Positions 1,213 to 16,010 of a DNA stretch of 64,000 bases are shown here, piece by piece. Position numbers and translations under genes: made by a program. The notes beneath the pieces were generated by a model. That model was not told where the DNA came from and did no database searches. It was given only the letters and a program-made list of their open reading frames with translations. Location: NCBI RefSeq assembly GCF_002093975.1, contig NZ_MSZZ01000044.1:1-64000 (forward strand), read 5' to 3'. The stretch comes from Thermoactinospora rubra (lineage in GTDB: Bacteria > Actinomycetota > Actinomycetes > Streptosporangiales > Streptosporangiaceae). Within the stretch, counting starts at the first letter, position 1, and every line of letters starts with the position of its first letter.

Positions 1213-2265
1213 ATGCAGACGGTGACAGCGCCGGCCGTACGGCTGCGCGAGATGGTCGACCGGCGACTGGAAGCCTTGCTGGCTCAAGGCCTGGGCGAAC
1301 TCGGCTTCCTCGGCGCCGACGCGGCCGTGGTGCGCGACCACCTGGCCAGGTTCGCCCTGGACGGCGGCAAGCGCCTGCGGCCGATGTTCGTCTACTGGGG
1401 CCACCGCGCGGCCGGCGGCGACGGCAGGCAGGAGGCGGTGCTGGCGGCAGGCTGCGCGGTCGAGCTGATCCACGTGGCCGCCCTGCTGCTGGACGACGTC
1501 ATGGACCAGACCGGCGCCCGCCGGGGGCGGCAGAGCGCGCACGCCGGGCTCGCCGCCCTCCACCGGCGGTCGGGCTGGCGCGGCGACCCCGCGCGGTTCG
1601 GGGAGTCCGCCGCCTCGCTGCTGGCGTTGCTCGCGTTCACCTGGGCGGACGCCGCCCTGGCGGAGACCGGCCGCGACCTGGGCGAGGCGCTGGACGTCCT
1701 GACGCGGCTGCGGGTGGAGGTGATCGGCGGGCAGTACCTCGACCTGGCCTGCTCGGCGCGCGGCACGGCCGACGCCACCCAGGTCCGCGCGATCGCGGTC
1801 TACAAGACGGCCAAGTACACCGTCGAGCGTCCTTTGCACCTGGGCCATGCCATCGCGGGCGGCAGCCCGCTCACCCGCCGGCTGCTGACCGCCTACGCGC
1901 TGCCGGTCGGCGAGGCCTTCCAGCTCAGGGACGACATCCTGGGCGTCTTCGGCGACCCGGCCGTCACCGGCAAGCCCGTGGGCGAGGACCTCCGCCAGGG
2001 CAAGCAGACGCTCCTGCTGGACGAAGCCCGCAGACGGGCGCCCGCCCGCGGCGCCGCGGTGCTGGCCGACGTCCGCGACGAGCGAGACGTCGCCGCCGCG
2101 CGCGAGCTGATCGCCTCGTGCGGCGCACTGGAGGCGGTCGAGCGGCGCATCGGCGAACTCGTGGACCGGGCGGCCGCGGTGCTCGACAGCGGCGAGTGGC
2201 TGCCTCCGGACGCCAGGGCCGCCCTGGTGGAGCTGGCGGAACTGGCCACGGCGAGGAGCGCCTGA
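1213..2265 (+). CDS. crtE: Geranylgeranyl diphosphate synthase
   Basis: A 350-residue trans-isoprenyl diphosphate synthase that condenses IPP with allylic diphosphates to make GGPP, the C20 precursor of phytoene. The first Asp-rich motif DDVMD is at residues 94-98 and the second, DDILG..D, starts near residue 240. The GGKRLRP substrate-binding segment is near residue 51. The chosen ATG has GGAGGAAA upstream and no conserved sequence before it. It begins the crtE-crtI-crtB run and overlaps crtI by 3 bp (ATG at 2265, stop 2263-2265). Chain length (C20 rather than C25/C30) is inferred from the carotenoid context. Confidence 0.93.
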   Translation: MQTVTAPAVRLREMVDRRLEALLAQGLGELGFLGADAAVVRDHLARFALDGGKRLRPMFVYWGHRAAGGDGRQEAVLAAGCAVELIHVAALLLDDVMDQTGARRGRQSAHAGLAALHRRSGWRGDPARFGESAASLLALLAFTWADAALAETGRDLGEALDVLTRLRVEVIGGQYLDLACSARGTADATQVRAIAVYKTAKYTVERPLHLGHAIAGGSPLTRRLLTAYALPVGEAFQLRDDILGVFGDPAVTGKPVGEDLRQGKQTLLLDEARRRAPARGAAVLADVRDERDVAAARELIASCGALEAVERRIGELVDRAAAVLDSGEWLPPDARAALVELAELATARSA

Positions 2266-3692
2266 TGAGCCGGACCGTGGTGGTCGGCGCGGGGCTGGGC
2301 GGGCTGTCGGCGGCGGTGCACCTGGCGGCGGCCGGCCGCGAGGTGGTCGTGGTGGAGGCGCGGGAGGAACCGGGCGGCTGCTGCGGCACCGACACGGCGG
2401 GGCCGTACACCTTCGACATCGGGCCGTCGGTCCTGACCATGCCCGGCGTCCTCGCCGCCACCTTCGGCGCGGCGGGCGAGGAGCTGGATCGATGGCTTCC
2501 GCTGCGCCGCCTCGACCCCTCCTACCGGCTGTGCTTCGACGACGGTTCGCATCTGGACGTGCGGGCCGGGGAGGAGGCCATGATCGAGGAGGTGCGCGCG
2601 GTGTGCGGGCCCGCTGAGGCCGACCGGTACCGGCGCTTCCGGCGGCTGGTGGAGAGGATGTTCCGCCTGGAGTGGCCGGCGTTCATCGACGCGGACATGA
2701 CGGGGCCGGGCGCGCTGGCGCGCCCGCTCCTGTTGCTGAGGCTGGCCGCGATGGGCGGCCTGCGCCGGCTGGACCGGCTCGCCGCGGCGTACCTGACCGA
2801 CGAGCGGCTGATCAAGGCGCACACCTTTCAGGCGCTCTATGTCGGCCTGTCACCGGAGCGGGCGCTCGGCATGTACGCGGTGATCGCGTACATGGACACC
2901 GTGGGCGGCGTGTACTACCCCGAACGCGGCGGCATGCACGCCGTTCCGGTCGCCATGGCCGGCCTGCTGGAGAAACTGGGCGCCACCATCCGGTACGGCA
3001 CGCGGGCCGTCCGGGTGACGGCCGACGGCGAGGGCGTGAGCGGCGTCCGCCTGGACACGGGCGAACTGCTCCCGGCCCGCCACGTGGTCGTGGCCGCAGA
3101 CCGGCTGGCGGCGCAGACGATGCTGCCCCCGGCCGCCCGGGACTGGCGGCTGCGCCGTCCCCGCCTGTCGCCCTCGTGCCTGGTGCTGCACGTCGGCCTG
3201 GAGCGAGAACCGCCCGGACAGGCACACCACACCCTGCACTTCGGGCGCGGCTGGCGGGAGACCTTCGCCGCCCTGGAGCGGGGCCGGCCGCAACCTGATC
3301 CCAGCCTTCTGGTCACCTGTCCGGGCGACGGCACCCTCAGCGTCCTGGAGCCCGCGCCGAACCTGTGCGGCGCCGACTGGGACCGGCTCCGGCCCCGGCT
3401 GGAGGAGAGGCTGCTGGCCCGCGTGGCCGCGCTCGGCTACGGCGACCACGGCACGGCCGCCCGCCTGGTGATCGACCCCCGGGACTGGCGGCGGCGCGGC
3501 CACACGGCGGGCACGCCGTTCGCGCTGGACCACCGCTTCACCCAGACGGCGTGGTTCCGCCCCTCCGGGCGCGCGCCGCGCGTGCCCGGACTGCACTTCG
3601 CCGGAATGTACACCGCGCCCGGTGTCGGCGTCCCCCCTGTCCTCATCTCCGGGCGGCTGGCCGCCCACCGGATCCTGGAGGACCCCCGATGA
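2265..3692 (+). CDS. crtI: Phytoene desaturase
   Basis: A 475-residue FAD-dependent CrtI-family desaturase introducing double bonds into phytoene on the way to lycopene or neurosporene. The N-terminal Rossmann motif VVGAGLGGLSAAVHLAAAG, followed by VVVEAREEPGG, binds FAD. The DIGPSVLTMP segment and the C-terminal HFAGMYTAPGVGVPPVLISG signature are typical of the family. The start is set by the ATGA-type junction with crtE, and the stop overlaps crtB by 4 bp. The placement between crtE and crtB makes it the primary phytoene desaturase. A second CrtI-type enzyme lies at 7939-9390. Confidence 0.92.
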   Translation: MSRTVVVGAGLGGLSAAVHLAAAGREVVVVEAREEPGGCCGTDTAGPYTFDIGPSVLTMPGVLAATFGAAGEELDRWLPLRRLDPSYRLCFDDGSHLDVRAGEEAMIEEVRAVCGPAEADRYRRFRRLVERMFRLEWPAFIDADMTGPGALARPLLLLRLAAMGGLRRLDRLAAAYLTDERLIKAHTFQALYVGLSPERALGMYAVIAYMDTVGGVYYPERGGMHAVPVAMAGLLEKLGATIRYGTRAVRVTADGEGVSGVRLDTGELLPARHVVVAADRLAAQTMLPPAARDWRLRRPRLSPSCLVLHVGLEREPPGQAHHTLHFGRGWRETFAALERGRPQPDPSLLVTCPGDGTLSVLEPAPNLCGADWDRLRPRLEERLLARVAALGYGDHGTAARLVIDPRDWRRRGHTAGTPFALDHRFTQTAWFRPSGRAPRVPGLHFAGMYTAPGVGVPPVLISGRLAAHRILEDPR

Positions 3693-4588
3693 GCCTGACC
3701 GCCAGTTACGAGCGGTGCCGCCGGCTGCACGCCGCCTACGGCAGGTCCTACTACCTGGCCACGCGGCTGCTTCCCGCCTGGAAGCGGCGGCACGTGCACG
3801 CTCTGTACGGCTTCGCCCGCTACGCCGACGAGATCGTCGACTCCTTCACCATGACCGCCGACCGGGCGACCGCTCTCGACCGCCTGGCCACCGGCGTCGC
3901 CGCCGCGCTGGCGGGCGAGCCGGTGCACGATCCGGTCCTGCCGGCGTTCGCGCACACCGTGCGTTCCTTCGGCATCGACCGCGGTGACATCGACGCCTTC
4001 CTGCGGGCGATGCGCGCCGACCTGACCGTCACCCGCTACGACACCTACGACGACCTGCTCGGCTACATGGAGGGCTCGGCCGCCGTGATCGGGACCATGA
4101 TGCTGCCCATCCTGGAGCCGCTGCCGGGCCTGGAGACCGCCGCCCGCGAACCGGCCCGCCGGCTGGGCCTGGCCTTCCAGCTCACCAACTTCCTCAGGGA
4201 CGTGGCGGAGGACTTCGCCAGAGGCCGCGTCTACCTGCCGCTGGAGGACCTGGTGGCGTTCGGGGTCAAGGAGGACGACCTGCAGGGGCCGCCGACCGGT
4301 CCCGCCGTGCGCGAGCTGCTGGCCTACGAGGCGGATCGCGCCCGCCTGCACTATCGGGCCGCGCTGAAGGGCGTGGACATGCTAGTGCCCTCCTCCCGCC
4401 CCTGTGTCAGGGCGGCCTACGAGCTTTACGGCGGCATCCTGGAGTCGATCGAGCGGGCCGGGTTCGACGTGCTGCCGCGCCGTATCCGCGTGCCGGTCCA
4501 CCGCAGGGCCGCCGTCTTCGCCCGCCACCTGCTTGCCGCGGCGCAGGCCGGCCGCGCCGAGCGCCGTGTGACCGTGGAGGTGCCATGA
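3689..4588 (+). CDS. crtB: Phytoene synthase
   Basis: A 299-residue squalene/phytoene synthase family enzyme joining two GGPP molecules head to head into 15-cis-phytoene. The two Asp-rich Mg2+/diphosphate motifs are visible: DEIVD at residues 47-51 and LTNFLRDVAEDFARGRVYLP near residue 165. Length fits the family (about 290-320). It overlaps crtI and the downstream plsX homologue by 4 bp each, so the whole crtE-I-B-plsX run is probably translated as a coupled operon. Confidence 0.93.
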   Translation: MSLTASYERCRRLHAAYGRSYYLATRLLPAWKRRHVHALYGFARYADEIVDSFTMTADRATALDRLATGVAAALAGEPVHDPVLPAFAHTVRSFGIDRGDIDAFLRAMRADLTVTRYDTYDDLLGYMEGSAAVIGTMMLPILEPLPGLETAAREPARRLGLAFQLTNFLRDVAEDFARGRVYLPLEDLVAFGVKEDDLQGPPTGPAVRELLAYEADRARLHYRAALKGVDMLVPSSRPCVRAAYELYGGILESIERAGFDVLPRRIRVPVHRRAAVFARHLLAAAQAGRAERRVTVEVP

Positions 4589-5574
4589 GCCGGGTCGTCC
4601 TGGACGCGATGGGCGGCGACCACGGCCCCGCCGAGATCGTCGCCGGCGCCGTGGCCGCCGTCCGCGAGCACGGGGTGCCGGTCACGCTGGTGGGTCCCGA
4701 GCCGCTGGTGCGCCGGGAGCTGGCGCGGCACGGCGCCGCGGACGACGTCGCCGTCGTGCATGCCCCGGACGCGGTGCCGATGGCCGAGCGGGGCCCGGCC
4801 GCCGCCCACGGCTCTACGACGAGCCTGGCCGTGGGCTGTGAGCTGACCGCCGGGGGCGGCGGGGCATTCGTGTCCGCCGGGTCCACCGGGGCGGTGGTCT
4901 CCTGCGCCGTCCGCCGGATCGGCCGGGCGCCGGGCGTGCTGCGCCCGGCGCTGGCCGTGGCGCTCCCGACCCTCCCCGGAGGCGCGAGCGTGCTGATCGA
5001 CGCGGGCGCCACGGCCGATCCGACACCGGAGATGATGGCGCAGTTCGCGCTGCTCGGCGCCCGCTATGCCCAGGCGGTCCTCGCGGTGCCGGAACCGCGC
5101 GTCGGGTTGCTGTCCATCGGCTCGGAGCCGGGCAAGGGCAGCCGGCTCGCCAGACGGGCCGAGCAGCTGCTGTCCCGGCTCCCGGTGCGGTTCGCCGGCA
5201 ACGTGGAGGGCCACGACGTGCTGGCGGGCGCGGTCGACGTGATCGTGACCGACGGTTTCACCGGCAACGTCGTGCTCAAGAACGTCGAGGGCTGCGTCCG
5301 CACCGTGCTGACCATGGCCGCGCAAGCCGGGGCGGCGCCGCGTGCCCTGGCCGAAGTGGCCGCGCTTTACCGGCCCGAGACGCACGGCGGGGCGGCCCTG
5401 GTGGGGTTGCGCGGCACGGTGCTGGTGGCGCACGGCTCCTCGAGGGCCACCACCGTGGCACGTGCCTGCGCCGTCGCGCACGCGCTGGCGTCCGCCGGCA
5501 TCGCGGGCGCGGTCGGCCTGCACACGGCCGGCCTGCACGCGGGCGGCCTGCCTGCGGCCGAGCCGGTACGGTGA
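4585..5574 (+). CDS. plsX: PlsX-like acyl-ACP:phosphate acyltransferase in the carotenoid operon
   Basis: A 329-residue protein starting VVLDAMGGDHGP, the hallmark of PlsX, with FVSAGSTGA, LLSIGSEPGKG and the conserved TDGFTGNVVLKNVEG segment. PlsX makes acyl-phosphate from acyl-ACP, normally for phosphatidic acid synthesis with PlsY. It is the fourth gene of the crtE-I-B operon with a 4-bp overlap, and a PlsY relative lies 0.7 kb downstream, so its acyl-phosphate may be used for a carotenoid ester. The family assignment is firm. The carotenoid role is inference. It could instead simply be a spare lipid gene. Confidence 0.85.
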   Translation: MSRVVLDAMGGDHGPAEIVAGAVAAVREHGVPVTLVGPEPLVRRELARHGAADDVAVVHAPDAVPMAERGPAAAHGSTTSLAVGCELTAGGGGAFVSAGSTGAVVSCAVRRIGRAPGVLRPALAVALPTLPGGASVLIDAGATADPTPEMMAQFALLGARYAQAVLAVPEPRVGLLSIGSEPGKGSRLARRAEQLLSRLPVRFAGNVEGHDVLAGAVDVIVTDGFTGNVVLKNVEGCVRTVLTMAAQAGAAPRALAEVAALYRPETHGGAALVGLRGTVLVAHGSSRATTVARACAVAHALASAGIAGAVGLHTAGLHAGGLPAAEPVR

Positions 5575-5588
5575 CCGGGCGCTCCCGC

Positions 5589-6296
5589 TCAGGCGGTCAG
5601 CGGGTCGGAGCCGTCCCAGGTGCCCTCCTGGGCGTAGGGGGCGAAACGAGCGAACAGCTCTTCGCTGTACCAGTTGTGCGCCCGCACCCGGGCGATCACG
5701 TCCCGGTGCGCGGCTCCCCGGTAGGCGAAGCCGTGCACGGCGGCCTGATCGCGCCACAGCGAGAAGGTCGCCTGACGCGCCAGCGGCCACTCCCCCATGC
5801 CGACCGAGCGCAGGCAGCCCTCCTGGTCACGCAGCGACGCGTCGACCGCGGGCACCGAGCGGTAGAAGGCCACCAGGCGGCCCGGCCTGATCGCCGCGCG
5901 GGTGAGCACGGCCACCGGCCCCGCCCACTCGGCGGGACGCGCGGACACGTCGGCGAACGGATCGGTCCCGCCCCAGCGGCCGCGGGCGGCCAGCGGCAGC
6001 AGCCGTACGTGCCAGGCCTCCCGCGCCTCCGCCCGCCACCGGCCGGCGACGGGCGAGGCGCGCAGGAACCCTTCCAGGTCCTCCTCCGACCGCCAGACCG
6101 CGAGCAGCGCCCAGCGGCGCAGGTCCGCGCCCGGCGTCGTCGATCGGCCGCGGCCGGTGCCCAGCAGCCGCCAGAACCGCAGGCCGGCGGTACGGCGCAG
6201 CAGTGGCCGGTCGAAGGCCGCGTGCCGCATGGAACCCACCGTGTCGTACCTGATGAGGTGAAACGAAGCGATGCTTGTTGTGCTGGTCCCGGCCAT
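5589..6296 (-). CDS. crtA: Spheroidene monooxygenase-like carotenoid ketolase (CrtA family)
   Basis: A 235-residue protein matching the CrtA pattern: an N-terminal SFHLIRYDTVGSM segment, LRFWRLLGTGRG, WALLAVWRSEEDLEGF, then GMGEWPLARQATFSLWRD and RAHNWYSEELFARFAPY near the C-terminus. CrtA enzymes oxidise C2 of acyclic carotenoids such as spheroidene. The ATG at 6296 has GAGGAGG 9 bp upstream. This start lies inside the divergent plsY-like gene, so the two 5' ends overlap by 26 bp. It converges on plsX with a 14-bp gap. The family call rests on remembered conserved blocks. The exact substrate is unknown. Confidence 0.75.
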   Translation of the reverse strand: MAGTSTTSIASFHLIRYDTVGSMRHAAFDRPLLRRTAGLRFWRLLGTGRGRSTTPGADLRRWALLAVWRSEEDLEGFLRASPVAGRWRAEAREAWHVRLLPLAARGRWGGTDPFADVSARPAEWAGPVAVLTRAAIRPGRLVAFYRSVPAVDASLRDQEGCLRSVGMGEWPLARQATFSLWRDQAAVHGFAYRGAAHRDVIARVRAHNWYSEELFARFAPYAQEGTWDGSDPLTA

Positions 6297-6867
6297 CGCC
6301 GGCTACCTCCTCGGCTCGGTGCCGGTGGCGGTCCTCGTGGCGCGTCTGCACGGCTTCGACCCGCGTGACGTGGGCGACCGCAATCCGGGGTTCTGGAACG
6401 TCAAGGAACGGCTGGGCTGGCGCGCCGCCGTCCCGGTGTTCGCCGGCGACCTGCTGAAGGGCACGGCCGCCGGGATCGTCGCGCTGGCCGTCAGCGGCTT
6501 CCACACCACCGGCTCGGGGGTCGTGGCGGGCGCGAGCGTCGTGCCGGTGTACACGGCGGTCGCGGCCGCCATGGCCGGGCACGCCTGGCCGGTCTTCGCC
6601 GGGTTGCGCGGGGGGAGGTCCGTCCTGACGTTCGCCGGCGGGATCGCCGTGATCTGCCCGCCCGCGTTCGCCCTGGCCGTGGTGGCGCTGGCGGCGGTGG
6701 CGCTGGCGACCAGGTCTTTCGCGGTCGGCGCCAGGGTGGCGGTCTTCGGGGTGCCGGTGGTGCAGCTGTTGTTCGCGCCGGTCTCGCACGTCGCCGCCAC
6801 GGGTCTGCTCATGTGCCTGATCGGCCTGCGCTTCGGCCAGGCCGCGCTGGCTTCGCCGCGGCGCTGA
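6271..6867 (+). CDS. PlsY-like membrane acyltransferase with altered motifs
   Basis: A 198-residue, strongly hydrophobic protein with PlsY architecture: YLLGSVPVAVLVARLHGFDPRDVGDRNPGFWNV at the start, FAGDLLKG, then GHAWPVFAGLRGGRSVLTFAGG. PlsY transfers acyl from acyl-phosphate to glycerol-3-phosphate. Canonical PlsY has GSGNxGATN and KGGKGVAT. Here these read GDRNPGFWN and RGGRSVLT, so the acceptor site differs. Together with the operonic PlsX this suggests acylation of another acceptor, perhaps a carotenoid glycoside. It overlaps crtA at its start and the glycosyltransferase end by 59 bp. GAGGTGA upstream supports the start. Confidence 0.75.
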   Translation: MLVVLVPAIAGYLLGSVPVAVLVARLHGFDPRDVGDRNPGFWNVKERLGWRAAVPVFAGDLLKGTAAGIVALAVSGFHTTGSGVVAGASVVPVYTAVAAAMAGHAWPVFAGLRGGRSVLTFAGGIAVICPPAFALAVVALAAVALATRSFAVGARVAVFGVPVVQLLFAPVSHVAATGLLMCLIGLRFGQAALASPRR

Positions 6868-7942
6868 GCGGCCCGCGGACGGAGTAGGCGCGCCCGCGCC
6901 AGGTGCGCACCGGGCGGAGCGTCGCCCATGTCAGCCGTACGGCTGCCGCCGGGTCCAGCAGAGGCGACACCAGGACGCTCAGCCCGGGCGCGCGGTAGCT
7001 GCCGCGCAGCGCCACGGTCAGCAGCAGGCGCACGGCCAGCAGGGTCAGGTCCAGCCGGGTGGGCCTGCCCGCCAGCAGTCGCAGCACCGGCAGGGCCATG
7101 GCCAGCCAGATCACCGCCAGGTCGGCGGCCCGCCGGCCGGGCGTGGTCACGTCGGCGAGCGGGAGGGAGCGGCCCCACTCACGCCAGACCTCGCGTGCCG
7201 AGTCGTGCATGTCGACTTCCAGCAGGCCACCGGCGTCGAGGAAGCCCACACGCCGGCCGCGGCGCGCCAGCCACCGGGCGAGCGCCACGTCGTCGGTCAT
7301 GTGGCCGCGGACCGCCGCGAAAGCGGCCGACCGGACCATCGGCTCGCGTCGGAAGCCCATGCACTGGCCGTTGGCCAGCACCCGGTGCGGCGCCGCGGGG
7401 CGGGTCGTGTCGGCGGGACCGAGCCGGTAGACCAGGGTGGCCAGCATGGAGGCGTGCAGGGCCTGCTCCACGAACCCGTCGCAGGAAAAGCGGGGACCGA
7501 CGCTCACCAGGTCGTAATCCTCCAGCGCGGCTGCCAGCGCCCCGGCCAGCCCCGGGCGGGGGCGGGCGTCGGCGTCCAGCGTGACGACGATCTCCCCGCT
7601 CGCCGCCGCCACGCCGTGGTGGAGGGCCCACTGCTTGCCCACCCAGCCCTCCGGCAGGGGCGGAGCGGCGATCACCTTCGCGCCCATCGAGGCGGCCAGC
7701 CGCGCCGTCCCGTCACTGGAGGCGTCGTCGACCACGACGACCTCCGTGACGGCCGGGTCCGCCGCCACGGCCGCCAGGCAGGGGCCGATCCTGCGTTCCT
7801 CGTCGCGGGCGGGGATCACCACGGAGATCGTGGCGGTGACATGCCCGGCCGCGCGAAGCGGGGCCGCCCGCCGCCTGCCGCGCGCCAGCCTGGACAGGGC
7901 CGCGGCGGCGGCGAGCGCCTGGGCCACGGTGAGCGGCCTCAT
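6809..7942 (-). CDS. Family 2 glycosyltransferase, probably carotenoid glycosyltransferase
   Basis: A 377-residue GT2 enzyme. After a short basic/hydrophobic N-terminus comes ISVVIPARDEERRIGPCL, VVVVDDASSDGT, the DXD-like LDADARP and the acceptor loop VLANGQCMGFRRE. RGHMTDDVALARWL supplies the ED/DD base region. C-terminal hydrophobic helices (DLAVIWLAMALPVLRLL and LTLLAVRLLLTVAL) indicate membrane association, as in CrtQ/CruC-type and hopanoid-linked transferases. Its start overlaps the crtD-like stop by 4 bp and its 3' end overlaps the convergent plsY-like gene by 59 bp. Its job is probably glycosylating a hydroxylated acyclic carotenoid made by CruF. Confidence 0.8.
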   Translation of the reverse strand: MRPLTVAQALAAAAALSRLARGRRRAAPLRAAGHVTATISVVIPARDEERRIGPCLAAVAADPAVTEVVVVDDASSDGTARLAASMGAKVIAAPPLPEGWVGKQWALHHGVAAASGEIVVTLDADARPRPGLAGALAAALEDYDLVSVGPRFSCDGFVEQALHASMLATLVYRLGPADTTRPAAPHRVLANGQCMGFRREPMVRSAAFAAVRGHMTDDVALARWLARRGRRVGFLDAGGLLEVDMHDSAREVWREWGRSLPLADVTTPGRRAADLAVIWLAMALPVLRLLAGRPTRLDLTLLAVRLLLTVALRGSYRAPGLSVLVSPLLDPAAAVRLTWATLRPVRTWRGRAYSVRGPLSAAAKPARPGRSAGRSGT

Positions 7943-9390
7943 GCCGGTCCGCCCCGCGCCGCAGGGCCGAAGTCCTCGGCCACCATGCGGGCCACCATCC
8001 GCCCGCCCAGCGCCACCATCGGCAGGCCGCCGCCCGGGTGCGTGGACCCGCCCACCAGGTACAGCCCCCGCCGCGGGCCACGGTTGCCGGGACGCAGGAA
8101 CGGCGCCAGCCTGCCCCGGTAGGCGGTGCCGTACACGGCTCCGCCCCAGGCGTCGTACCTGTCACGTATGTCCGCGGGCGTGAACATGTCGACGAACCGC
8201 AACCGCCCGGCCAGGTCGTGGCCGCGCCCGGCCAGCCGCTCCAGCACCAGGTCCCGGTAGGCCTCGGGGCCGACCGGCCAGCCGCCGGGGTCTCCCGCGG
8301 GGACGTTGACGAGCATCACCCAGTTCTCCGCCCCCTCCGGCGCCTGGGACGAGTCGTCCACGGCCGAGCAACCGATGTAGACCGTCGGGTCCCGGGGCGG
8401 GCGGCGCCGGTCGAAGATGTCGCCGAACTCCTGCTCGTAGTCTGCGGAGAACACGATCGAGTGATGGGCCAGCCCCGGCGTGCGCCCCTCCACCCCGGCC
8501 AGCAGCAACAACACCGACGACGACGGTCCCAGTCCGGCGATGCGCCGCATCCGCCGCCGATCCGGCAGCAGCCTGCCGTACAGCGTCGCGGCGTCGGCGT
8601 TGGCCACCACGACGTCGGCCCGCACCCTCTCGCCGCCGGCCAGCCGTATGCCCGTGACCTGCCGGGAGTCGGCGAGCACCGCCTCCACCTGGGTGCCCGG
8701 CCGTACCTCGGCCCCGGCCTCTTTGAGCAGGGCCGCCAGGTCGTCGGCCAGCCGGGGCAGGCCGCCGGGCACATACCAGCCGCCCTGCTCGTGCTCCAGC
8801 GCCGGCACGCATCCCAGAGCCGCGGGCGCGCGATAGGGGGACGAACCGGCGTAGGTGGCGTAGCGGCCCACGTACTGGCGCAGGCGCCGATCATGGAAGA
8901 ACCGGCGGGCGAGCCCGGCCAGGGTGCGTCCCGGGGCCACCGCCGCCAGGTCCGACAAGTGTGCCCGCTCCGGCAGACGGGTGGGCGGGCCCGCGAAGAA
9001 CGTGCGCTCGGCGGCGCGCAGGCAGCGTGACGCCCAGGCGTGGAAGGCCCGCCAGGACCTCCCCTCGCCGGGCGCCAGCCGTTCGACCCGCTCGGCCATC
9101 CGGTCCGGATCCCGGCAGGCCGACAGCGCCGACCCGTCCGCGAAGCGGTAGCGGCACAGCTCCTCCGGCTCGACGAAGGTCCTGTGCAGGCCCAGGTCGC
9201 GAAAGACGTGCGGCATCGTCAGCAGGGACGGTCCCAGGGAGAAGGTGAACCCGTCGCGGTGGTGCTCGGCCAGCTTCCCCCCGAGCCGGGGGAGCCGTTC
9301 GATCACCAGCACCTGGTGGCCGAGCCTGGCCAGCGACAGGGCGGCCACCATGCCGCCCACCCCGCCGCCGACGACGATCACCTCTGCCAT
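7939..9390 (-). CDS. crtD: Second CrtI-type desaturase, CrtD-like
   Basis: A 483-residue FAD-dependent amine-oxidase/CrtI family protein: VIVVGGGVGGMVAALSLARLG, then VIERLPRLGGKL, TFSLGPSLLTMP, and the C-terminal LYLVGGSTHPGGGLPMVALGGRM signature. The GSTHPGGGxP ending and the cruF neighbour favour a carotenoid 3,4-desaturase (CrtD) acting after hydration, rather than a second phytoene desaturase. The start codon is preceded by AGAGGTGATC, which is itself a copy of the gene's own codons 2-5 (a 15-bp repeat, see 9376-9407). A CrtO/CrtP oxygenase role cannot be excluded. Confidence 0.78.
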   Translation of the reverse strand: MAEVIVVGGGVGGMVAALSLARLGHQVLVIERLPRLGGKLAEHHRDGFTFSLGPSLLTMPHVFRDLGLHRTFVEPEELCRYRFADGSALSACRDPDRMAERVERLAPGEGRSWRAFHAWASRCLRAAERTFFAGPPTRLPERAHLSDLAAVAPGRTLAGLARRFFHDRRLRQYVGRYATYAGSSPYRAPAALGCVPALEHEQGGWYVPGGLPRLADDLAALLKEAGAEVRPGTQVEAVLADSRQVTGIRLAGGERVRADVVVANADAATLYGRLLPDRRRMRRIAGLGPSSSVLLLLAGVEGRTPGLAHHSIVFSADYEQEFGDIFDRRRPPRDPTVYIGCSAVDDSSQAPEGAENWVMLVNVPAGDPGGWPVGPEAYRDLVLERLAGRGHDLAGRLRFVDMFTPADIRDRYDAWGGAVYGTAYRGRLAPFLRPGNRGPRRGLYLVGGSTHPGGGLPMVALGGRMVARMVAEDFGPAARGGPA

Positions 9391-9407
9391 TGGATCACCT
9401 CTGCCAT
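9376..9407. repeat. 15-bp direct duplication spanning the crtD-like start
   Basis: GATCACCTCTGCCAT (plus strand) occurs at 9376-9390 and again at 9393-9407, 17 bp apart. On the coding strand the copy nearer crtD is its first five codons. The other copy ends cruF, contains its stop codon and supplies the Shine-Dalgarno for crtD. The duplicated ATG at 9407 is in a different frame. Confidence 0.9.
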
Positions 9408-10279
9408 CGCCGCCTCCACGCCAGCACGACGAAGATCCCCATGCCGATGCCTCCGACGGTTGCGACCAGCGGATCGGGCGGACGGAAGACCACAGCGAAG
9501 CCCAGCGTCTCCATCACGGCCATGACCGTGTACAACCACAGCAGGCCACGCCCGGCCAGTCCGGCGCCGGCGACGCGGTCGAGCACCGCCATGATGGCCA
9601 GCGAGACCAGCAGCCACCCGGCGAAGTTGCTCCAGGGAATCCCGTGGTAGGGGCCGTCCTCGCGCCACACCCACACGCCCTGCCTGACCATCTGCGGATC
9701 CAGGAACAGGTCCCACGCCGTCAGGGCGAGAGCGCCGACCGCCAGGCGCAGCCATCGGCGGCCCGGCACAGCCGCCCGGGCCACGGCGTAGGCGGCCAGG
9801 CCCATGCCCGCCCATGCCGCCGCCACCACGACGGGCACGCCGAAGAGCCGGGGATGCAGAGCGTCGGTGTACTCGTACTCGCCGAACGGCCAGCCCGTGC
9901 CGACCCCCACGAGCTCGGCCGCATACCCCAGCACCGCCGCCGCGGCGAACCCCGCGGCCGCGCGGCCGGCCCCCGCCGTCGAGGCCGCCAGACCCACCGC
10001 GCTCGCCGCGAGCAGGACCACGATGACTTCGGTGAACCGTCCGGGGTCGGCGCTCAACCCGGACGCGACCTGGCACCCGACCATGGCCGCGAGACACGCC
10101 AGCCCTGGCGCGATGCTCCACGTATGCGCTTCGCGCGTCACCACCACGTCTTGGCTTTCGCCGAGGGGGCGCCGGCGGTTGCCGATCCTGTCGACGGCGT
10201 CTCGTACGGCATGCCGAGCCCGAGCTCCATCCCAGGACACACCGGCACCCCGTCCACATGGCGGCCGCTCGCCGGTCAC
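9395..10279 (-). CDS. cruF: Carotenoid 1,2-hydratase-type membrane protein (CruF)
   Basis: A polytopic membrane protein of up to 294 residues from the CruF family, which adds water to the psi end of acyclic carotenoids to give a tertiary hydroxyl that can then be glycosylated. Diagnostic blocks are AELVGVGTGWPFGEYEYTD, VPVVVAAAWAGM, AWDLFLDPQMV and YHGIPWSNFAGWLLVS, with about seven hydrophobic helices. The GTG at 10279 overlaps the sigma-factor stop (GTGA). The first 45 residues are not conserved-looking, so an internal GTG near 10141 is an alternative start. Confidence 0.85.
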   Translation of the reverse strand: MTGERPPCGRGAGVSWDGARARHAVRDAVDRIGNRRRPLGESQDVVVTREAHTWSIAPGLACLAAMVGCQVASGLSADPGRFTEVIVVLLAASAVGLAASTAGAGRAAAGFAAAAVLGYAAELVGVGTGWPFGEYEYTDALHPRLFGVPVVVAAAWAGMGLAAYAVARAAVPGRRWLRLAVGALALTAWDLFLDPQMVRQGVWVWREDGPYHGIPWSNFAGWLLVSLAIMAVLDRVAGAGLAGRGLLWLYTVMAVMETLGFAVVFRPPDPLVATVGGIGMGIFVVLAWRRRWQR

Positions 10280-10755
10280 GCCGCCGCCAGGAGCGAGGAC
10301 AGGCGGTGCAGACCGCGGGCCGTCCTGGCCTTGACGGTGCCCAGCGGCACGTCGAGATACTCGGCGATCTCCCGCTGGCTAAGCTCGCCGTAGTAAGCCA
10401 GGGTGAGGGCCTCCCGCTGGACGGCGGGCAGCGCCGACAGCGCCTGCCGCACCCGGTCGCGGTCGGCGAGGGTCTCGCCGGGGTCCCGGCCATCGCGGTC
10501 CGCGGGGTCGCCGATGACCTCCAGCGGAATCGTCGCAGGTCGCCGCGCGCGCAGATGGTCGATGGCCCGCTTGCGCGCGATGCCCAGCAGCCACGCCTCC
10601 GGGCTGCGCGTGGAGTCGTATCGGTCACGGGCGCGCCATGCCTCGGTGAAGACGACCTGCAGCACGTCGTCGACGTCCTGCCACGACACCATCCGGGCCA
10701 GGTAGGCGCGGATCAACGGGCCGTGGGCGCGATACCAGCCGGTGAGCGGGTCCAT
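10276..10755 (-). CDS. ECF sigma factor linked to carotenoid genes (LitS-like)
   Basis: A 159-residue sigma-70 family ECF factor with region 2 (DVDDVLQVVFTEAWRARDRYD..SPEAWLLGIARKRAIDHLRAR) and region 4 (LPAVQREALTLAYYGELSQREIAEYLDVPLGTVKARTARGLHRL). No anti-sigma gene is adjacent. In Streptomyces carotenoid loci an ECF sigma (LitS) is induced through the B12-dependent MerR protein LitR. The same pair occurs here with litR directly upstream on the same strand, so light control is likely by analogy. The start has AGAGG upstream and lies 20 bp from an AT-rich dyad. Confidence 0.85.
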   Translation of the reverse strand: MDPLTGWYRAHGPLIRAYLARMVSWQDVDDVLQVVFTEAWRARDRYDSTRSPEAWLLGIARKRAIDHLRARRPATIPLEVIGDPADRDGRDPGETLADRDRVRQALSALPAVQREALTLAYYGELSQREIAEYLDVPLGTVKARTARGLHRLSSLLAAA

Positions 10756-11023: not shown

Positions 11024-11992
11024 TCAGCGGCGAGGAGCCGCGCCCGCGCCGCCACCGGGCGGGACGCCGAGGGCTCCGGCGATCCACTCGGCGGCCGCCC
11101 TCAGGGAGGTCACACGGGTCAGCCGTGCGGGCAGGAGCTCCGGCCACCCCGGACCGCCCACGAGAACCCTGCAAGGCGGCCGCAGGGACGGCAGCCTGGT
11201 GAGCGGCAGAGGATCGCCTGTCGCGGCCAGCTGGGAGTAGACGAAGACCACCGCGGGCCCCAGCCGCCGCATCGCGTCCGCCAGCGCCGCATACGGGGTG
11301 CGCGCGCCCAGCACCCGGCCTTCCACACGGTGCTCGGTGGCCAGCGTCGCGGCCAGCGCATGGACCGGAAGGCTGTGCTGCTCCTCCTCGGCGCAGGCCA
11401 GGAGCACGAGCCGGGCGTTCGCCGGCTCGGCGGGCCGGCGCGCCAGTCCGTGCAGGGCCGCCAGGACCTGGTCGGAGAACAGGTGCTCGATGTCGACGTC
11501 GGCACCGCTCGCCGCCTGCCGGCGGCAGATCGTCTCGAAGGCCGGGCGCACCAGGCGATCCCACGTCCAGACCACGCCGTGCCGGGCCAGAGCGGCAGCG
11601 AGGCCTTCCGCCACGGCCCGCCCGTCCAATGCCGCCGCCGCCCGGGCCATCATGGCGGCCGAAGGCACCCCGCCACCGGCAGGATGTCCGGCATCGAGTC
11701 CCATCGGGCCAGGCGAAGCCCTCTCCTCGGCGGGTACGGGCTGCACCGAGCTCGTCGTCGACAGCAACGCCCGGCGGGCCGCCTCGGCGGGCGGCATGCC
11801 CGCATGGATCAGGCGATTCATCTCCTCCAGGCGGCGCAGGTCGTCCTCGCCGTACCGGCGGTGCCCGCCGGGACTGCGGCGGCTGGGCCCGATGCCGTAC
11901 CGCAGGTTCCACGTCCGCAACGTCGCGGACGGCACGCCGAGCCGCCGCGAGACGGCCCCGATGCCGTACCCCTGCTGCTCCTGATCGGTCAC
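11024..11992 (-). CDS. litR: MerR-family regulator with cobalamin-binding domain (LitR/CarH type)
   Basis: A 322-residue regulator. An N-terminal MerR helix-turn-helix (IGAVSRRLGVPSATLRTWNLRYG..SPGGHRRY) is followed by a linker, a B12-binding four-helix region and a Rossmann-like cobalamin domain. The EH of the W-x9-EH upper-face motif is present (VDIEHLFSDQV), but the tryptophan position is Gln. The lower-ligand histidine is kept in EEEQHSLPVHAL. CarH/LitR proteins are dark-state repressors that release DNA when light breaks adenosylcobalamin. It precedes the ECF sigma and cruF-crtD-GT genes on the same strand. Confidence 0.85.
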   Translation of the reverse strand: MTDQEQQGYGIGAVSRRLGVPSATLRTWNLRYGIGPSRRSPGGHRRYGEDDLRRLEEMNRLIHAGMPPAEAARRALLSTTSSVQPVPAEERASPGPMGLDAGHPAGGGVPSAAMMARAAAALDGRAVAEGLAAALARHGVVWTWDRLVRPAFETICRRQAASGADVDIEHLFSDQVLAALHGLARRPAEPANARLVLLACAEEEQHSLPVHALAATLATEHRVEGRVLGARTPYAALADAMRRLGPAVVFVYSQLAATGDPLPLTRLPSLRPPCRVLVGGPGWPELLPARLTRVTSLRAAAEWIAGALGVPPGGGAGAAPRR

Positions 11993-12205: not shown

Positions 12206-14224
12206 TCACGCCCCGGCCGTCTCGCGGACGACGACGACCTCGCCTGGCGCCACCTCCACGCCACCGTCGGCGGGGCGCGCCGCCCCGGTGACGACCGTGC
12301 CGCGCACGGGAACGAAGACCGTCTCGTCGGTGTGATTCATCACGAACAGGTGGGCCGAGTCCGCGCCCGCCCGGCGCACGGCCTCCACGCCCCCGGGCGC
12401 CGATACGGCAGGCGTGACGCCGGCTTCGCCGCAGGCGTCCATGAGGATGCGCTCCAGCGCGTCCGCCTCGGGGCGGGTGGCCACGTACCAGGCCGTGCCC
12501 CGGCCGTGGGCGTGCCGGGTGAGGGCCGGGCCGCCCGCGGCGGGCCCGCTCGCAAAGGTCCTGACGGCCTGGGCGCCCTCCAGGACGATCCGCTCGCTCC
12601 ACACCGTGCCGGTCGTGCCGTCGTCGAGGGCGACGGTCTCCTTCTCGCGCAGCGGGAGGAACTCGTCGACGAGCAGGCCGAGCAGGCCGCGGTAGGCCCC
12701 GGGATGGCCGCCCAGCCGTACGTGGTCGCGCTCGTCGGCCACGCCGCTGAAGAAGCCGACGACGGCGTGCCCGCCGTCCTCGACGTACCGGCACAGCGAG
12801 GCGGCGTCGGCGTCGGTGACGAGGTACTGACTCGGGACGAGCACCAGGCGGTAGCGCGACAGGTCCGTGCCGGGATGCACGACGTCGCAGGTGACGCCGC
12901 CCCGCCACAAAGCCGCGTACCAGTGGCGGATCAGGTCCAGGTAGCGCACGTCCACCGACGGGCGGGCCTCCAGCTCCAGAGCCCACCAGGCGTGCCAGTC
13001 GAACAGCATCGCCACCTCGGCCTCGACCGCGCCGCCCGCCACGGGCCGCAGCGTCCGCAACTCGGCGCCCAGGTCCCGCACCGCCCGCCACGTGGTGGTC
13101 GCCGTGCCCCCGTGCGGGAGCATGGCCGAATGCCACTTCTCGGCCCCCGCCCTGGACTGGCGCCACTGGAAGTACATGATGCCGTCGGCGCCCCTGGCCA
13201 GGTGCGCCAGCGAGTTGCGGCGCATCTCCCCCGGCGCCTTGGCGATGTTGCGCGGCTGCCAGTTGACCGCCGAGGTCGAGTGCTCCATCAGCAGCCACGG
13301 CCCGCCCCCGGCCATGCCCCGGGCGAGGTCGGCGTTGAGCGACAGGTCGATGTGCGCCTGCGGGTCGGCCGCGGTGAGGTAGTGGTCGACGGCGACCAGG
13401 TCGCATTCGCGGGCGAAGGCGAAGCCGTCGACCTTCTTCTCCAGCGTGCCCATCAGGTTGGTGGTGATCGGGACATCGGGGCTGAGCCGCCGCAGGACGG
13501 CCGCCTCGGCCCGGTGCAGGGCCAGCAGGGCGTCGGAGGAGAACCTCCAGTAGTCCAGCTGCTGGCCGGGGTTGCGGAAGGCCGGTGTGGCGCGCGGCGG
13601 CATCACCTCCGCCCAGTCGCCGTACCGCTGGCTCCAGAAGGCCGTGCCCCAGGCGTCGTTCAGCGCGTCGAGGTCGCCGTAGCGCTCCCGCAGCCAGTCG
13701 CGGAACGCCGCCGCGCTGGCGTCGCAGAAGCAGTGCGCGTTGTGGTTGCCCCACTCGTTGTGGACGTGCCACAGGGCCAGCGCCGGGTGACCGGCGTAGC
13801 GGGCCGCGAGCTGCTCGACGAGCCTGCCGGCCGCCTCGGCGTAGGCGGGGCTGCTGGGGCAGAACCCCTGCCGGGAGCCGTGCCACAGCCTGACCCCCTC
13901 GGCGGTCACCGGCATGGCCTCGGGGTGCCGCGCGAGGAACCACGGCGGCGGCGAGGCGGTGGCGGTGGCCAGGTCGACGGCGATCCCGTGCTCGTGCAGC
14001 AGGCCGAGCACCTCGTCCAGGAAGCCGAACTCGTAGCGGCCGGGGCGCGGCTCGATCCACGCCCACGAGAACACCCCCACGGTGACGAGGTTGACGCCCG
14101 CCTCGCGCATCAGCCGGGCGTCCTCCTTCCACACCTCCCTGGGCCACTGCTCGGGGTTGTAGTCGCCGCCGTAGGCGATCATGCCGCCCAGCCGGGCGGT
14201 CAGACGTGCCATCACGTCGCTCAC
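12206..14224 (-). CDS. GH42 beta-galactosidase
   Basis: A 672-residue family 42 glycoside hydrolase releasing galactose from beta-galactosides. YGGDYNPEQWPREVWKEDARLM opens the TIM barrel. The acid/base Glu is in WHVHNEWGNHN and the nucleophile Glu in LLMEHSTSAVNWQPRN. A Cys near the first site (CFCD) fits the zinc cluster seen in some members. The GTG at 14224 overlaps the permease stop (GTGA), and an ATG 12 bp further in is an alternative. No signal peptide is seen, so it is cytoplasmic and works on imported oligosaccharides. Last gene of the importer operon. Confidence 0.92.
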   Translation of the reverse strand: MSDVMARLTARLGGMIAYGGDYNPEQWPREVWKEDARLMREAGVNLVTVGVFSWAWIEPRPGRYEFGFLDEVLGLLHEHGIAVDLATATASPPPWFLARHPEAMPVTAEGVRLWHGSRQGFCPSSPAYAEAAGRLVEQLAARYAGHPALALWHVHNEWGNHNAHCFCDASAAAFRDWLRERYGDLDALNDAWGTAFWSQRYGDWAEVMPPRATPAFRNPGQQLDYWRFSSDALLALHRAEAAVLRRLSPDVPITTNLMGTLEKKVDGFAFARECDLVAVDHYLTAADPQAHIDLSLNADLARGMAGGGPWLLMEHSTSAVNWQPRNIAKAPGEMRRNSLAHLARGADGIMYFQWRQSRAGAEKWHSAMLPHGGTATTTWRAVRDLGAELRTLRPVAGGAVEAEVAMLFDWHAWWALELEARPSVDVRYLDLIRHWYAALWRGGVTCDVVHPGTDLSRYRLVLVPSQYLVTDADAASLCRYVEDGGHAVVGFFSGVADERDHVRLGGHPGAYRGLLGLLVDEFLPLREKETVALDDGTTGTVWSERIVLEGAQAVRTFASGPAAGGPALTRHAHGRGTAWYVATRPEADALERILMDACGEAGVTPAVSAPGGVEAVRRAGADSAHLFVMNHTDETVFVPVRGTVVTGAARPADGGVEVAPGEVVVVRETAGA

Positions 14225-15123
14225 GACTTCACCGCCCCGGCGGCGAGCCCGGCCCGCCAGTAGCGCTGGAGCAGCAGGAAGGTGATCACGATCGGCACCA
14301 CCGACACCAGCGACCCGGCGACGGTGAGGATCTGCAGGCCGGGCTCCCGGCTGACCTGGGACTGCCAGGTGAACAGGCCGAGGGTCACCGGATAGAGCCG
14401 GTCGTCCTGCAGCATCACCAGCGGCAGCAGGAAGTTGTTCCAGATGACGACGAACTGGAACAGGAAGATCGTCACCAGGGCCGGGGACATGAGCCGCAGC
14501 GCGATGGTGAAGAAGATCCGCCACTCTCCCGCGCCGTCCAGCCGGGCCGCCTCGATCAGCTCGTCCGGGACCGAGGCCGCGGCGAAGATGCGTGACAGGT
14601 ACACCCCGAAGGGGCTGACGACGCTGGGCAGGAACACCGACCAGAAGGTGTTGGTGGCCTCCAGCTTGGCGAACAGCAGGAACAGCGGCAGGGCCAGCGC
14701 GGTGGCCGGGACGAGGACGCCGCCCAGGATCACCGAGAAGACCAGTTCCCGGCCGCGGAAGGGGAACTTCGCCAGCGCGTAGCCCGCCAGGGCCGCCAGC
14801 AACGTGCCGACCGCCGCCCCGAGCCCCGCGTACAGCAGGCTGTTGACCATCCACCGCAGGTAGACGCCGTCCTGCTCGGTGAACAGGGCCCGCAGGTTGT
14901 CGGCCAGGTGCATCTCGGCGAACCAGAAGCCGAAGGTGCTCACCAGGTCGCCCTGGCTCTTGGTGGCCGACACCAGCAGCCAGAACACCGGCAGCAGCAT
15001 GTAGACGGCCACCAGCGCGAGGAAGACGAACGCCAGTCCCACGGCCGCCGGGCTGTCCCGGCGGCCGCCGAGCCTGGCGTGCCGCGGAGGATGCGCCCCG
15101 GCGATGTCGGTGAGCATGCTCAT
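14221..15123 (-). CDS. Sugar ABC transporter permease (MalG type)
   Basis: A 300-residue membrane subunit with six hydrophobic helices and the EAA loop IEAARLDGAGEWRIFFTIALRLMSPA that docks to the ATPase. VVIWNNFLLPLVM near the C-terminus is typical of MalG-type subunits. The start is fixed by the ATGA overlap with the upstream permease stop, and its own stop overlaps GH42. With its partner and the binding protein at 16071-17450 it forms a CUT1 importer, probably for galacto-oligosaccharides given GH42 and GH36 next to it. No ATPase gene is nearby. Confidence 0.9.
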   Translation of the reverse strand: MSMLTDIAGAHPPRHARLGGRRDSPAAVGLAFVFLALVAVYMLLPVFWLLVSATKSQGDLVSTFGFWFAEMHLADNLRALFTEQDGVYLRWMVNSLLYAGLGAAVGTLLAALAGYALAKFPFRGRELVFSVILGGVLVPATALALPLFLLFAKLEATNTFWSVFLPSVVSPFGVYLSRIFAAASVPDELIEAARLDGAGEWRIFFTIALRLMSPALVTIFLFQFVVIWNNFLLPLVMLQDDRLYPVTLGLFTWQSQVSREPGLQILTVAGSLVSVVPIVITFLLLQRYWRAGLAAGAVKS

Positions 15124-16010
15124 GAGCGGGCCTTTCGACTGCTGAGCTTGAGGAAGCCGAACGACAGGACGAACGTGGCCAGCGCCAGCGTCACCGACAT
15201 GGCCGCGGCCTCGCTGTAGTTGTTGGCCGACGCCAGCGAGTAGGCCGCCAGGTTGGGGGTGTAGGTGCTGGTGACGCTGGTGGAGATGGCGCGGAAGACC
15301 TGCGGCTCGGTGAACAGCTGCAGGGTGCCGATGATGGAGAACACGCCGGTCAGGATCAGCGCCGGGCGCACGATGGGGACCTTGATGCGCCAGGCGATCG
15401 TCGTGCCGCCCGCGCCGTCGGTGCGCGCCGCCTCGTAGATGTCGGCCGGGATGGCCTGCAGCGCCGCATAGATGATCAGCATGTTGTAGCCGGTGTAGGT
15501 CCAGGTGACCACGTTGGCCATGGACCACAGGATGGTGTCGGCGCCGAGGAAGTCGGGCCGGATCCCGATCCGGCCGAGCAGGTCCACCACCGGCGACAGC
15601 CTCGGGTCGTACAGGAAGCCCCACATCAGGGCCGCGATGACGCCGGGGATGCCGTAGGGCACGAAGTAGGCGATGCGGAAGAACCGCTTCAGCCGTACCA
15701 CGGCCGAATCCAGCAGCAGCGCCAGCAGCAGGGCGAGCAGCAGCATGAGGGGGATCTGCACCACGCCGAACAGCAGGACCCGGCCGAGGCTGCGCAGGAA
15801 CTCCGGGTCGGTCAGCACCTCGCGGTACTGCGACAGCCCCGCGAAGACGGTGGTGCGCCGGCCGAACGTGCCGCCGACCCGCCTGGTGGCGAACAGGCTC
15901 TGGTAGGCGGCGTAGCCGACGGGCGCCAGCGTGAACAGCGTGAACGGGATGAGGAAGGGAGCCAGGAAGAGCCAGGGATCCCAGCGGCGCCTGCGGTGCC
16001 GAACGCTCAT
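15120..16010 (-). CDS. Sugar ABC transporter permease (MalF type)
   Basis: A 296-residue membrane subunit. It has a basic N-terminus (RHRRRRWDPW), a first helix LFLAPFLIPFTLFTLAPVGYA and the EAA loop YEAARTDGAGGTTIAWRIKVPIVRPA. It pairs with the MalG-type permease, whose start overlaps its stop by 4 bp. It is separated from the binding-protein gene by 60 bp that hold a strong stem-loop, an arrangement that usually gives higher expression of the binding protein. Confidence 0.9.
   Translation of the reverse strand: MSVRHRRRRWDPWLFLAPFLIPFTLFTLAPVGYAAYQSLFATRRVGGTFGRRTTVFAGLSQYREVLTDPEFLRSLGRVLLFGVVQIPLMLLLALLLALLLDSAVVRLKRFFRIAYFVPYGIPGVIAALMWGFLYDPRLSPVVDLLGRIGIRPDFLGADTILWSMANVVTWTYTGYNMLIIYAALQAIPADIYEAARTDGAGGTTIAWRIKVPIVRPALILTGVFSIIGTLQLFTEPQVFRAISTSVTSTYTPNLAAYSLASANNYSEAAAMSVTLALATFVLSFGFLKLSSRKARS

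Follow-up and report, generated by a model that had tools for sequence, protein, structure and literature searches.

A carotenoid gene cluster that contains plsX2 and plsY2

The window (the whole stretch of DNA analysed here, 64,000 nucleotides from Thermoactinospora rubra, contig NZ_MSZZ01000044.1) contains a carotenoid (crt) pigment cluster that spans positions 1213-10279, near the start of the contig, in a genome of 8.22 Mb. Two genes of this cluster, plsX2 and plsY2, encode members of the PlsX and PlsY families and are the subject of this report. There is an operon on the + strand with the order crtE, crtI, crtB, plsX2. Its first gene encodes a CrtE-like polyprenyl diphosphate synthase (1213-2265; PF00348, 149.3 bits) and is followed by crtI of the phytoene desaturase family (2265-3692; TIGR02734, 377.8 bits against a cut-off of 238.1), crtB of the phytoene synthase family (3689-4588; PF00494, 249.5 bits) and the plsX paralogue plsX2 (4585-5574), the proposed source of acyl-phosphate from acyl-ACP (acyl carrier protein) for the pigment pathway. 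The crtE and crtI genes share one base (TGATG), and the crtI/crtB and crtB/plsX2 junctions each share ATGA, crtB ending at 4588 and plsX2 starting at 4585. The original prediction, which was made from the sequence of the window, had put a plsX homologue fourth in an operon after crtE, crtI and crtB, and this is what we find.

The remaining tailoring genes lie on the opposite (-) strand: a crtA-like monooxygenase gene (5589-6296), a CruG/HpnB-like family-2 glycosyltransferase (GT) gene (6809-7942), a crtD-like carotenoid 3,4-desaturase gene (7939-9390) and a cruF-like carotenoid 1,2-hydratase gene (9395-10279). The only + strand gene between the crtA-like and GT genes is plsY2 (6271-6867), and its called open reading frame (ORF) overlaps both. 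It encodes a PlsY-family membrane acyltransferase of a crt-associated clade, the proposed acyl-phosphate:carotenoid-glycoside acyltransferase. This gene order confirms the predicted placing of a PlsY relative beside a crtA-type gene, with a membrane GT and cruF nearby; the interval 4585-6867 also holds the crtA-like gene.

The tailoring enzymes are assigned by best family match. The CrtA-like protein, a proposed psi-end C-2 hydroxylase or ketolase, has one NCBIfam match, to spheroidene monooxygenase (NF045923), although at 182.2 bits this is below the cut-off of 300. The GT likewise scores below the equivalog cut-off for CruG (NF045692, 252.8 against 600), yet this is its best-scoring family (PF00535, 77.6). 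The CrtD-like protein reaches 315.3 against 580 with the CrtD model NF045637 and 311 against 238.1 with TIGR02734. The CruF-like protein is above the cut-off of PF04240 (148 against 25) and below that of the equivalog TIGR03460 (125.2 against 154.7). A search of the genome revealed no convincing lycopene cyclase: the PF05834 matches over the cut-off covered 34 residues at 23-26 bits, the remaining PF05834 matches fell under the cut-off and TIGR03462 gave none. The carotenoid is therefore expected to be acyclic.

Fold and active-site residues of PlsY2

PlsY2 matches PF02660 at 106.1 bits, well above the cut-off of 24.1, and scores 74 with TIGR00023, below the equivalog cut-off of 137.2; a canonical PlsY of genome G404 is itself slightly under this cut-off (135.5). 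The AlphaFold2 (AF2) model of PlsY2 has a predicted local distance difference test score (pLDDT) of 91.7 and aligns with 5xj7 with a VIA Z of 20.3 (root-mean-square deviation 3.0, 179 residues). Matches to PlsY crystal structures lie at Z 19.5-20.3 and the next row at 3.6. On this model, PlsY2 has the seven-helix PlsY fold.

In the account of PlsY, a small membrane enzyme, given by Li et al. (2017; PMC5700162), the phosphate of glycerol 3-phosphate (G3P) is bound by S35, R45, K104 and N180 and its 2-hydroxyl by S142 and H177, in a pocket described as highly invariable. The acyl-phosphate is bound by the backbone amides of residues 104-107, by H92, by A40/T41 and by the T41 hydroxyl, and N37 probably stabilizes the intermediate. 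The residual activity of A. aeolicus PlsY is 1.1% in R45A, 4.6% in N180A, 0.3% in H177F and 4.75% in T41A; the mildest mutants are K104R (25%) and S142A (32%), and alanine at S142 and arginine at K104 occur in known PlsY homologues (PMC5700162).

We aligned 83 crt-associated PlsYs (crt-PlsYs), which are the window protein and 82 from other genomes of the order. S35 is replaced by D, K104 by R and T41 by W in 83/83, and R45 is replaced by E in 70, Q in five, G in four and D in one. The acyl-phosphate side is different: H92, N37, G102 and G103 are unchanged in all 83, the 104-107 loop is free of proline, and the features of this site are kept apart from the T41 to W change. The window protein has D, E, R, A, A and F at S35, R45, K104, N180, S142 and H177, where the A at N180 (A191) and the F at H177 (F188) are placed by the end points of the structural alignment. 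In a second alignment, 15 crt rows have D at S35 (15/15), W at T41 (15/15) and E at R45 (12/15), none retains R45 or the HxxN motif and two retain K104, in comparison with 28 distinct canonical actinobacterial rows that retain S35 (28), R45 (27), K104 (27) and HxxN (27). The canonical rows vary at T41 too (13 A, nine T, five S and one M). As judged from these alignments, the crt-PlsYs have lost most of the G3P clamp and retained most of the acyl-phosphate site. With the G3P clamp largely replaced, a change of acceptor is suspected, and D36, W42 and E46 (where present) would be in keeping with a pocket for a sugar where the phosphate clamp had been. The crt-PlsY of genome G821, which lies outside the residue table, has T at position 46 by our reading.

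These residues bear on two alternatives. The first is that PlsX2 and PlsY2 carry out ordinary G3P acylation to make a special or extra phospholipid that houses the pigment. Both proteins belong to phospholipid families, and position 46 is still R in 3/83 crt-PlsYs. The change of S35 to D in 83/83 and of R45 to E in 70/83 count against G3P as the acceptor, and further evidence on this point is given below. The second is that PlsX2 and PlsY2 serve a different acceptor, such as a glycolipid or a precursor for the GT, or that PlsY2 is a binding or structural partner that transfers nothing. The T41 to W change and the lost HxxN are deep changes that speak for it. Against it, H92, N37 and the GG pair have stayed constant along a long branch, as would fit an acyl-phosphate chemistry that has been retained, and PlsX2 is found in 74/82 of the plsY2 loci described below. 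We consider this second alternative unlikely.

plsY2 is found with the crt cluster throughout the order

To see how these genes are distributed we used an order-wide sample of 249 genomes and the families PF02660 (PlsY), PF02504 (PlsX) and PF04240 (CruF), which are present in 84/249, 245/249 and 96/249 genomes, respectively. PlsY and CruF occur together in 83 genomes, PlsY alone in one, CruF alone in 13 and neither in 152 (Fisher P 9e-51, not corrected for relatedness).

Stretches were fetched from the 82 other genomes with PlsY and CruF, from G144 and from the 13 CruF-only genomes, and were queried with the window proteins. In 82/82 loci plsY2 adjoins CrtA and GT genes on the opposite strand, with the stop codons at most 1746 bases apart. 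PlsX2 is encoded in 74 of these loci, CrtB in 81 and CrtI, CrtD and CruF in 80 each; in the two without CruF in the stretch (G145 and G197) it is on another contig. A scan of named contigs, which overlap with the order set, found 89 loci, of which 80 were kept: CrtA, plsY2 and GT are present in 80/80 and PlsX2 in 71. The kept loci come from Nonomuraea, Planobispora, Sphaerisporangium, Actinomadura, Streptosporangium, Microbispora, Planotetraspora, Planomonospora, Thermomonospora, Actinocorallia and metagenome-assembled genomes; Nonomuraea fuscirosea and Microbispora rosea, both culturable, are among the carriers. Additionally, a plasmid search gave one match, a replicon of Nonomuraea gerenzanensis that carries the same cluster in an unannotated stretch. 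Genome G144 has two neighbouring divergent PF02660 matches (L100, 9392-11276) with no crt gene found in the 20 kb fetched, and its aligned PlsY relative is without S35, N37 and R45.

The cluster copy is the only PF02660 match in the genome. The separate plsY that had been looked for is absent, and this favours a phospholipid role. However, 165/249 genomes of the order, including 18/34 of the window's genus, have no PlsY match. Since these genomes do without PlsY, plsY2 probably does not serve phospholipid synthesis in general; a housekeeping role for it is disfavoured on the same count, which also speaks against G3P acylation for pigment housing. The genome has seven PF01553 acyltransferases, none of them on the contig of the cluster, and these could serve phospholipid synthesis by acylating G3P. 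It would have counted against the original prediction if the two genes were the genome's only plsX and plsY copies and essential for phospholipid synthesis. This does not hold for plsX, of which there is a second copy (see below); plsY2 is a sole copy, but in an order where most genomes have none. All 82 fetched plsY2 loci besides the window are of the crt type, and 245/249 genomes have PlsX in comparison with 84/249 that have any PlsY.

plsY2 occurs only in clusters with a GT

There is no plsY2 locus without a GT (0/82). The converse does occur: five syntenic crt clusters (L103, L104, L105, L107 and L111) have a GT and neither plsX2 nor plsY2, and one (L108, in G094) has no GT match, no plsX2 and no plsY2. 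These come from the 13 CruF-positive, PlsY-negative genomes. Six of the 13 have a distant CruF (48-63 bits) and no other cluster gene in the stretch, two of them on contigs of just 5175 and 3465 bases; the rest are G240, where the cluster runs off the contig, G094 and the five clusters that are full except for plsX2 and plsY2. In those five the CrtA and GT open frames abut or overlap, leaving no room for a replacement acyltransferase between them (the wider flanks were not searched). The finding of plsY2 only with a GT fits acylation after glycosylation, as expected of a final tailoring reaction that depends on the glycoside.

This pattern also bears on a third alternative, that PlsY2 acylates a carotenoid hydroxyl directly to give a xanthophyll ester. 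For such an ester, the acceptors could be the hydroxyls that the CruF-like and CrtA-like enzymes are expected to place at C-1 and C-2. Against this, plsY2 is with a GT in 82/82 loci and the lone syntenic GT-free cluster (L108) is also without plsY2. Additionally, the D and W of the acceptor pocket would suit a sugar. Direct esterification is thus distinctly unlikely. The absence of GT-free plsY2 loci is also left unexplained if the product is a phospholipid that houses the pigment.

The arrangement may alternatively be a coincidence of gene order, or the acyl genes may have hitch-hiked in the pigment cluster, given that genes may be nested in clusters for historical reasons. Against this, the neighbours are identical in 82/82 loci, plsX2 and plsY2 are jointly absent from otherwise intact clusters and the co-occurrence is repeated in a second class of bacteria (see below). 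We regard coincidence as extremely improbable.

The cluster PlsX is a distinct paralogue

The genome has two PlsX proteins: PF02504 gives 254.9 bits for the cluster copy and 319.8 bits for a copy on contig C55. A separate plsX elsewhere in the genome had been anticipated near rpmF/fabH. The gene exists, but its flanks read instead as a P-type ATPase and a KamA-like gene (names from ORF reading rather than from a family search). PlsX2 is above the PF02504 cut-off (255.6 bits against 29.1) and below the equivalog cut-off of TIGR00182 (235.4 against 243.4), whereas the C55 protein is above the latter (310.2). The AF2 model of PlsX2 (pLDDT 87.9) has 6a1k as its best PDB match in Foldseek (E 6.4e-27, TM 0.79) and predicts a PlsX fold.

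We compared PlsX2 sequences with the other, PlsX1, type at 91 positions that are common to 10 or more of 11 PlsX1 and to B. subtilis PlsX. Of these, 68 are unchanged in 95% or more of 71 PlsX2 and the other 23 are variable or altered. The LKxxEG-GGA loop has a median of 32 residues (range 11-49) in 71 of the 75 PlsX2 (a length filter removed four, and a few lengths are possibly mis-anchored) in comparison with 42 in 10 PlsX1 and B. subtilis. The shortened loop falls where B. subtilis PlsX is described as having an amphipathic membrane peptide (residues 250-262). At about the columns of this peptide the 71 PlsX2 have a median of 3 residues (range 3-20) and the 11 PlsX1 have 13; our B. subtilis numbering differs by two residues from the published one, which affects these column counts and leaves the loop lengths as they are. 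Most PlsX2 are without this region. A PlsX that is no longer targeted to the membrane in general would suit a dedicated role.

At least two PlsX matches are found in 75/84 PlsY-positive genomes and in 7/165 PlsY-free genomes. PlsX typing in the PlsY-free genomes covered these seven, and one only (G190) has a copy of the PlsX2 type. As possible counter-examples to the link between plsX2 and the cluster, the others were rejected: in G128, G188 and G217 the extra copies seem to be parts of one gene that is split, the second PlsX of G046 is PlsX1-like and those of G146 and G204 are of a third paralogue type, which the plsY2-bearing G176 has as well. The PlsX2 of G190 was also rejected, as it sits in the scar of a deleted crt cluster. 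G190 has the same genus label (g16) as the Streptosporangium contigs. The gene (L287, 9150-10414) adjoins some 117 bases left over from CrtD, and its flanks align with the flanks of intact clusters (L124 and L052): the cluster was deleted around it. The third-type genes (L288, 6992-7999; L289, 8305-9330; and L290, 3705-4736, in G146, G204 and G176) neighbour an ABC transporter and a luciferase-like monooxygenase, a P450, or a non-ribosomal peptide synthetase (NRPS) condensation domain and a GMC oxidoreductase. This type may be a further case of a PlsX drawn into secondary metabolism.

crt-PlsYs in other classes and their phylogeny

In a phylum-wide set of 396 genomes, a crt-PlsY model gives 122-193 bits for five that belong to other classes and 86 or less for the rest besides the window's own; the window is the only match from its own class, and the share of that class in the set is not stated. 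All five distant crt-PlsYs belong to crt clusters: CrtA and GT lie close to plsY2, and CruF, CrtD and CrtI are also present. There is no PlsX match in the fetched stretches of these loci. Four of the five genomes have a further PlsY match.

We then used 296 genomes of a second class, that of G361, which was chosen for having a match. PlsY-family matches are present in 227/296, and the crt-PlsY model A4 gives at least 192 bits in only five (G859, G361, G404, G279 and G821; the next is 119). Three of these (G361, G404 and G279) were known beforehand and are part of the model, and G859 and G821 are new. The top five CruF scorers of the class (at least 119.7; the next is 71) are the same five genomes, and CrtA and GT flank plsY2 in all of them. 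Taken with the 83/84 PlsY genomes that have CruF and the 82/82 loci that have CrtA and GT, this is a tight co-occurrence of plsY2 with CruF and the GT in two classes, which supports the original prediction. In G821 a further-diverged crt-PlsY (L297, 2759-3409) is on one contig with CrtA and GT, and crtE, crtI, crtB, cruF and crtD are on another.

Each of the five second-class genomes has a second PlsY match (102-117 bits), and the three of these that were aligned, from G404, G361 and G279 (L250, L251 and L252), carry the canonical residues. This counts against G3P acylation by the crt-associated copy. Taken together with the residues, the PlsY-free genomes and the constant presence of a GT, this makes the synthesis of a pigment-housing phospholipid very unlikely.

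In an IQ-TREE tree of 44 PlsY rows, the 15 crt-PlsYs form one side of a branch (support 100/100), on a stem with 1.74 changes per site. Closest to them (88/71, not starred) are canonical PlsYs from one f26 genome and from three f32 genomes, and the latter three also carry a crt-PlsY. This suggests a duplication in that lineage followed by transfer. Five rows (L100, L242, L225, L227 and L249) have long branches. On balance we favour the view that a PlsY subfamily was retargeted from G3P to a carotenoid-linked sugar, with a single origin beside canonical PlsY and a CrtA-PlsY-GT module in other actinobacterial classes, and that it spread to the Streptosporangiaceae, whose class is seemingly without canonical PlsY, where it gained a dedicated PlsX that has mostly lost the membrane tag.

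A proposed route to acylated carotenoid glycosides

The gene order, the co-occurrence, the separate clade, the predicted folds, the retained acyl-phosphate residues and the loss of most of the G3P clamp are direct observations. From these we infer an activity, donor, acceptor, product and order of steps: PlsX2 probably makes acyl-phosphate with which PlsY2 acylates a carotenoid glycoside. In this proposal an acyclic carotenoid would be hydrated by CruF, 3,4-desaturated by the CrtD-like enzyme, oxidized at C-2 by the CrtA-like enzyme and glycosylated by the CruG-like GT. PlsX2 would convert acyl-ACP and phosphate to acyl-phosphate, to be bound at the site that PlsY2 has kept for it. PlsY2, an integral membrane protein, would then move the acyl group to a sugar hydroxyl, which takes the place of G3P in a pocket lined by D36, W42 and usually E46, to give a carotenoid glycoside fatty-acyl ester. 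One CrtA homologue, CrtA-OH, is described as hydroxylating C-2 of the psi-end (PMC11855829) and another as ketolating it (PMC10604819), and the sugar may therefore be at C-1 or C-2.

Several observations weigh against this proposal. On the acceptor side, R45 is not always E, with R retained in three of the 83 proteins; K104 to R is a mild change, to judge from the activity of K104R, and two of the 15 crt rows keep K; and F188 and A191 were matched to H177 and N180 by structural-alignment end points and not by a residue table. Conservation on the donor side is incomplete: W stands throughout in place of T41, the residue that binds the acyl-phosphate carbonyl by its side chain, position 105 is S or C and position 107 is L. 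PlsX2 is not obligatory, as plsY2 is without plsX2 in 8/82 loci and in the five distant genomes; another PlsX would have to serve in those loci. PlsX2 also appears to be split across reading frames in G167 and G187, and G190 keeps plsX2 open without its cluster. One distant genome, G369, gave a crt-PlsY alone and no second PlsY.

The original prediction, that acyl-phosphate rather than acyl-CoA may be used to acylate a carotenoid glycoside, is thus partly supported: the genomic checks favour it, the residues add a reason to suspect a changed acceptor, and the acyl-phosphate donor, sugar acceptor and ester product are putative. In literature searches judged by title, with subscription papers mostly outside their reach, we did not find a PlsX/PlsY route to carotenoid glycosides described; PMC6702220, PMC2889829 and PMC13060810 were also consulted. 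The protein families are known; what is new, so far as these searches reach, is a clade of retargeted PlsYs in a pigment pathway. We know of no acyl-phosphate acylation route outside glycerolipid synthesis, and if the proposal is correct this would be the first known to us. A natural clade with a rebuilt G3P pocket and most of the acyl-phosphate site retained would show how the acceptor choice of PlsY is set. The route would also offer a means of acylating glycosides without CoA, and would explain how carotenoids are finished in many pigmented actinomycetes.

Flanking genes

Beyond cruF, at higher coordinates and also on the - strand, there are genes for a sigma factor, a probable regulator that we read as ECF-type (10276-10755; PF04542 and PF08281), and for a MerR-family regulator that is CarH-like in its helix-turn-helix (HTH) only (11024-11992; NF052513, 65.2 against 400; the HTH alone in Pfam). 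A scan for promoters and terminators gave nothing that clearly exceeds chance. By the ORF list, the region 12206-16010 of the window contains a large ORF resembling a GH42-type beta-galactosidase and sugar ABC transporter permeases, and looks ordinary.

Comparison with known systems

In comparison with the PlsX/PlsY phospholipid system, the two families and the predicted folds are the same and PlsY2 keeps H92, N37, G102 and G103; PlsY2 differs in its largely replaced G3P clamp, its site in a crt cluster and its separate clade. Unlike B. subtilis PlsX, most PlsX2 are without the amphipathic membrane peptide region.

Acylated carotenoid glycosides are known. CruD is an acyltransferase of a family other than PlsY. 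Staphyloxanthin-type glycosyl acylation by CrtQ/CrtO also gives an acylated carotenoid glycoside, with a different acyltransferase family and backbone. There is no PF01553 match on the contig of the cluster, where no CruD model was searched.

Acylation of carotenoid glycosides by CruC/CruD has been proposed for Rhodothermus marinus (PMC5822342). If our reading is right, the two systems are alike in that a GT and then an acyltransferase lead to an acylated carotenoid glycoside, and unlike in that the acyltransferase here is of the PlsY family and would use acyl-phosphate. Finally, the window has a tailoring trio homologous to the CruF, CrtD and CrtA-OH that modify the psi-end in the myxol-type pathway of Nonlabens spongiae (PMC11855829). 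In contrast with that pathway, an acyclic product is expected here, and the GT, PlsX2 and PlsY2 are additional.

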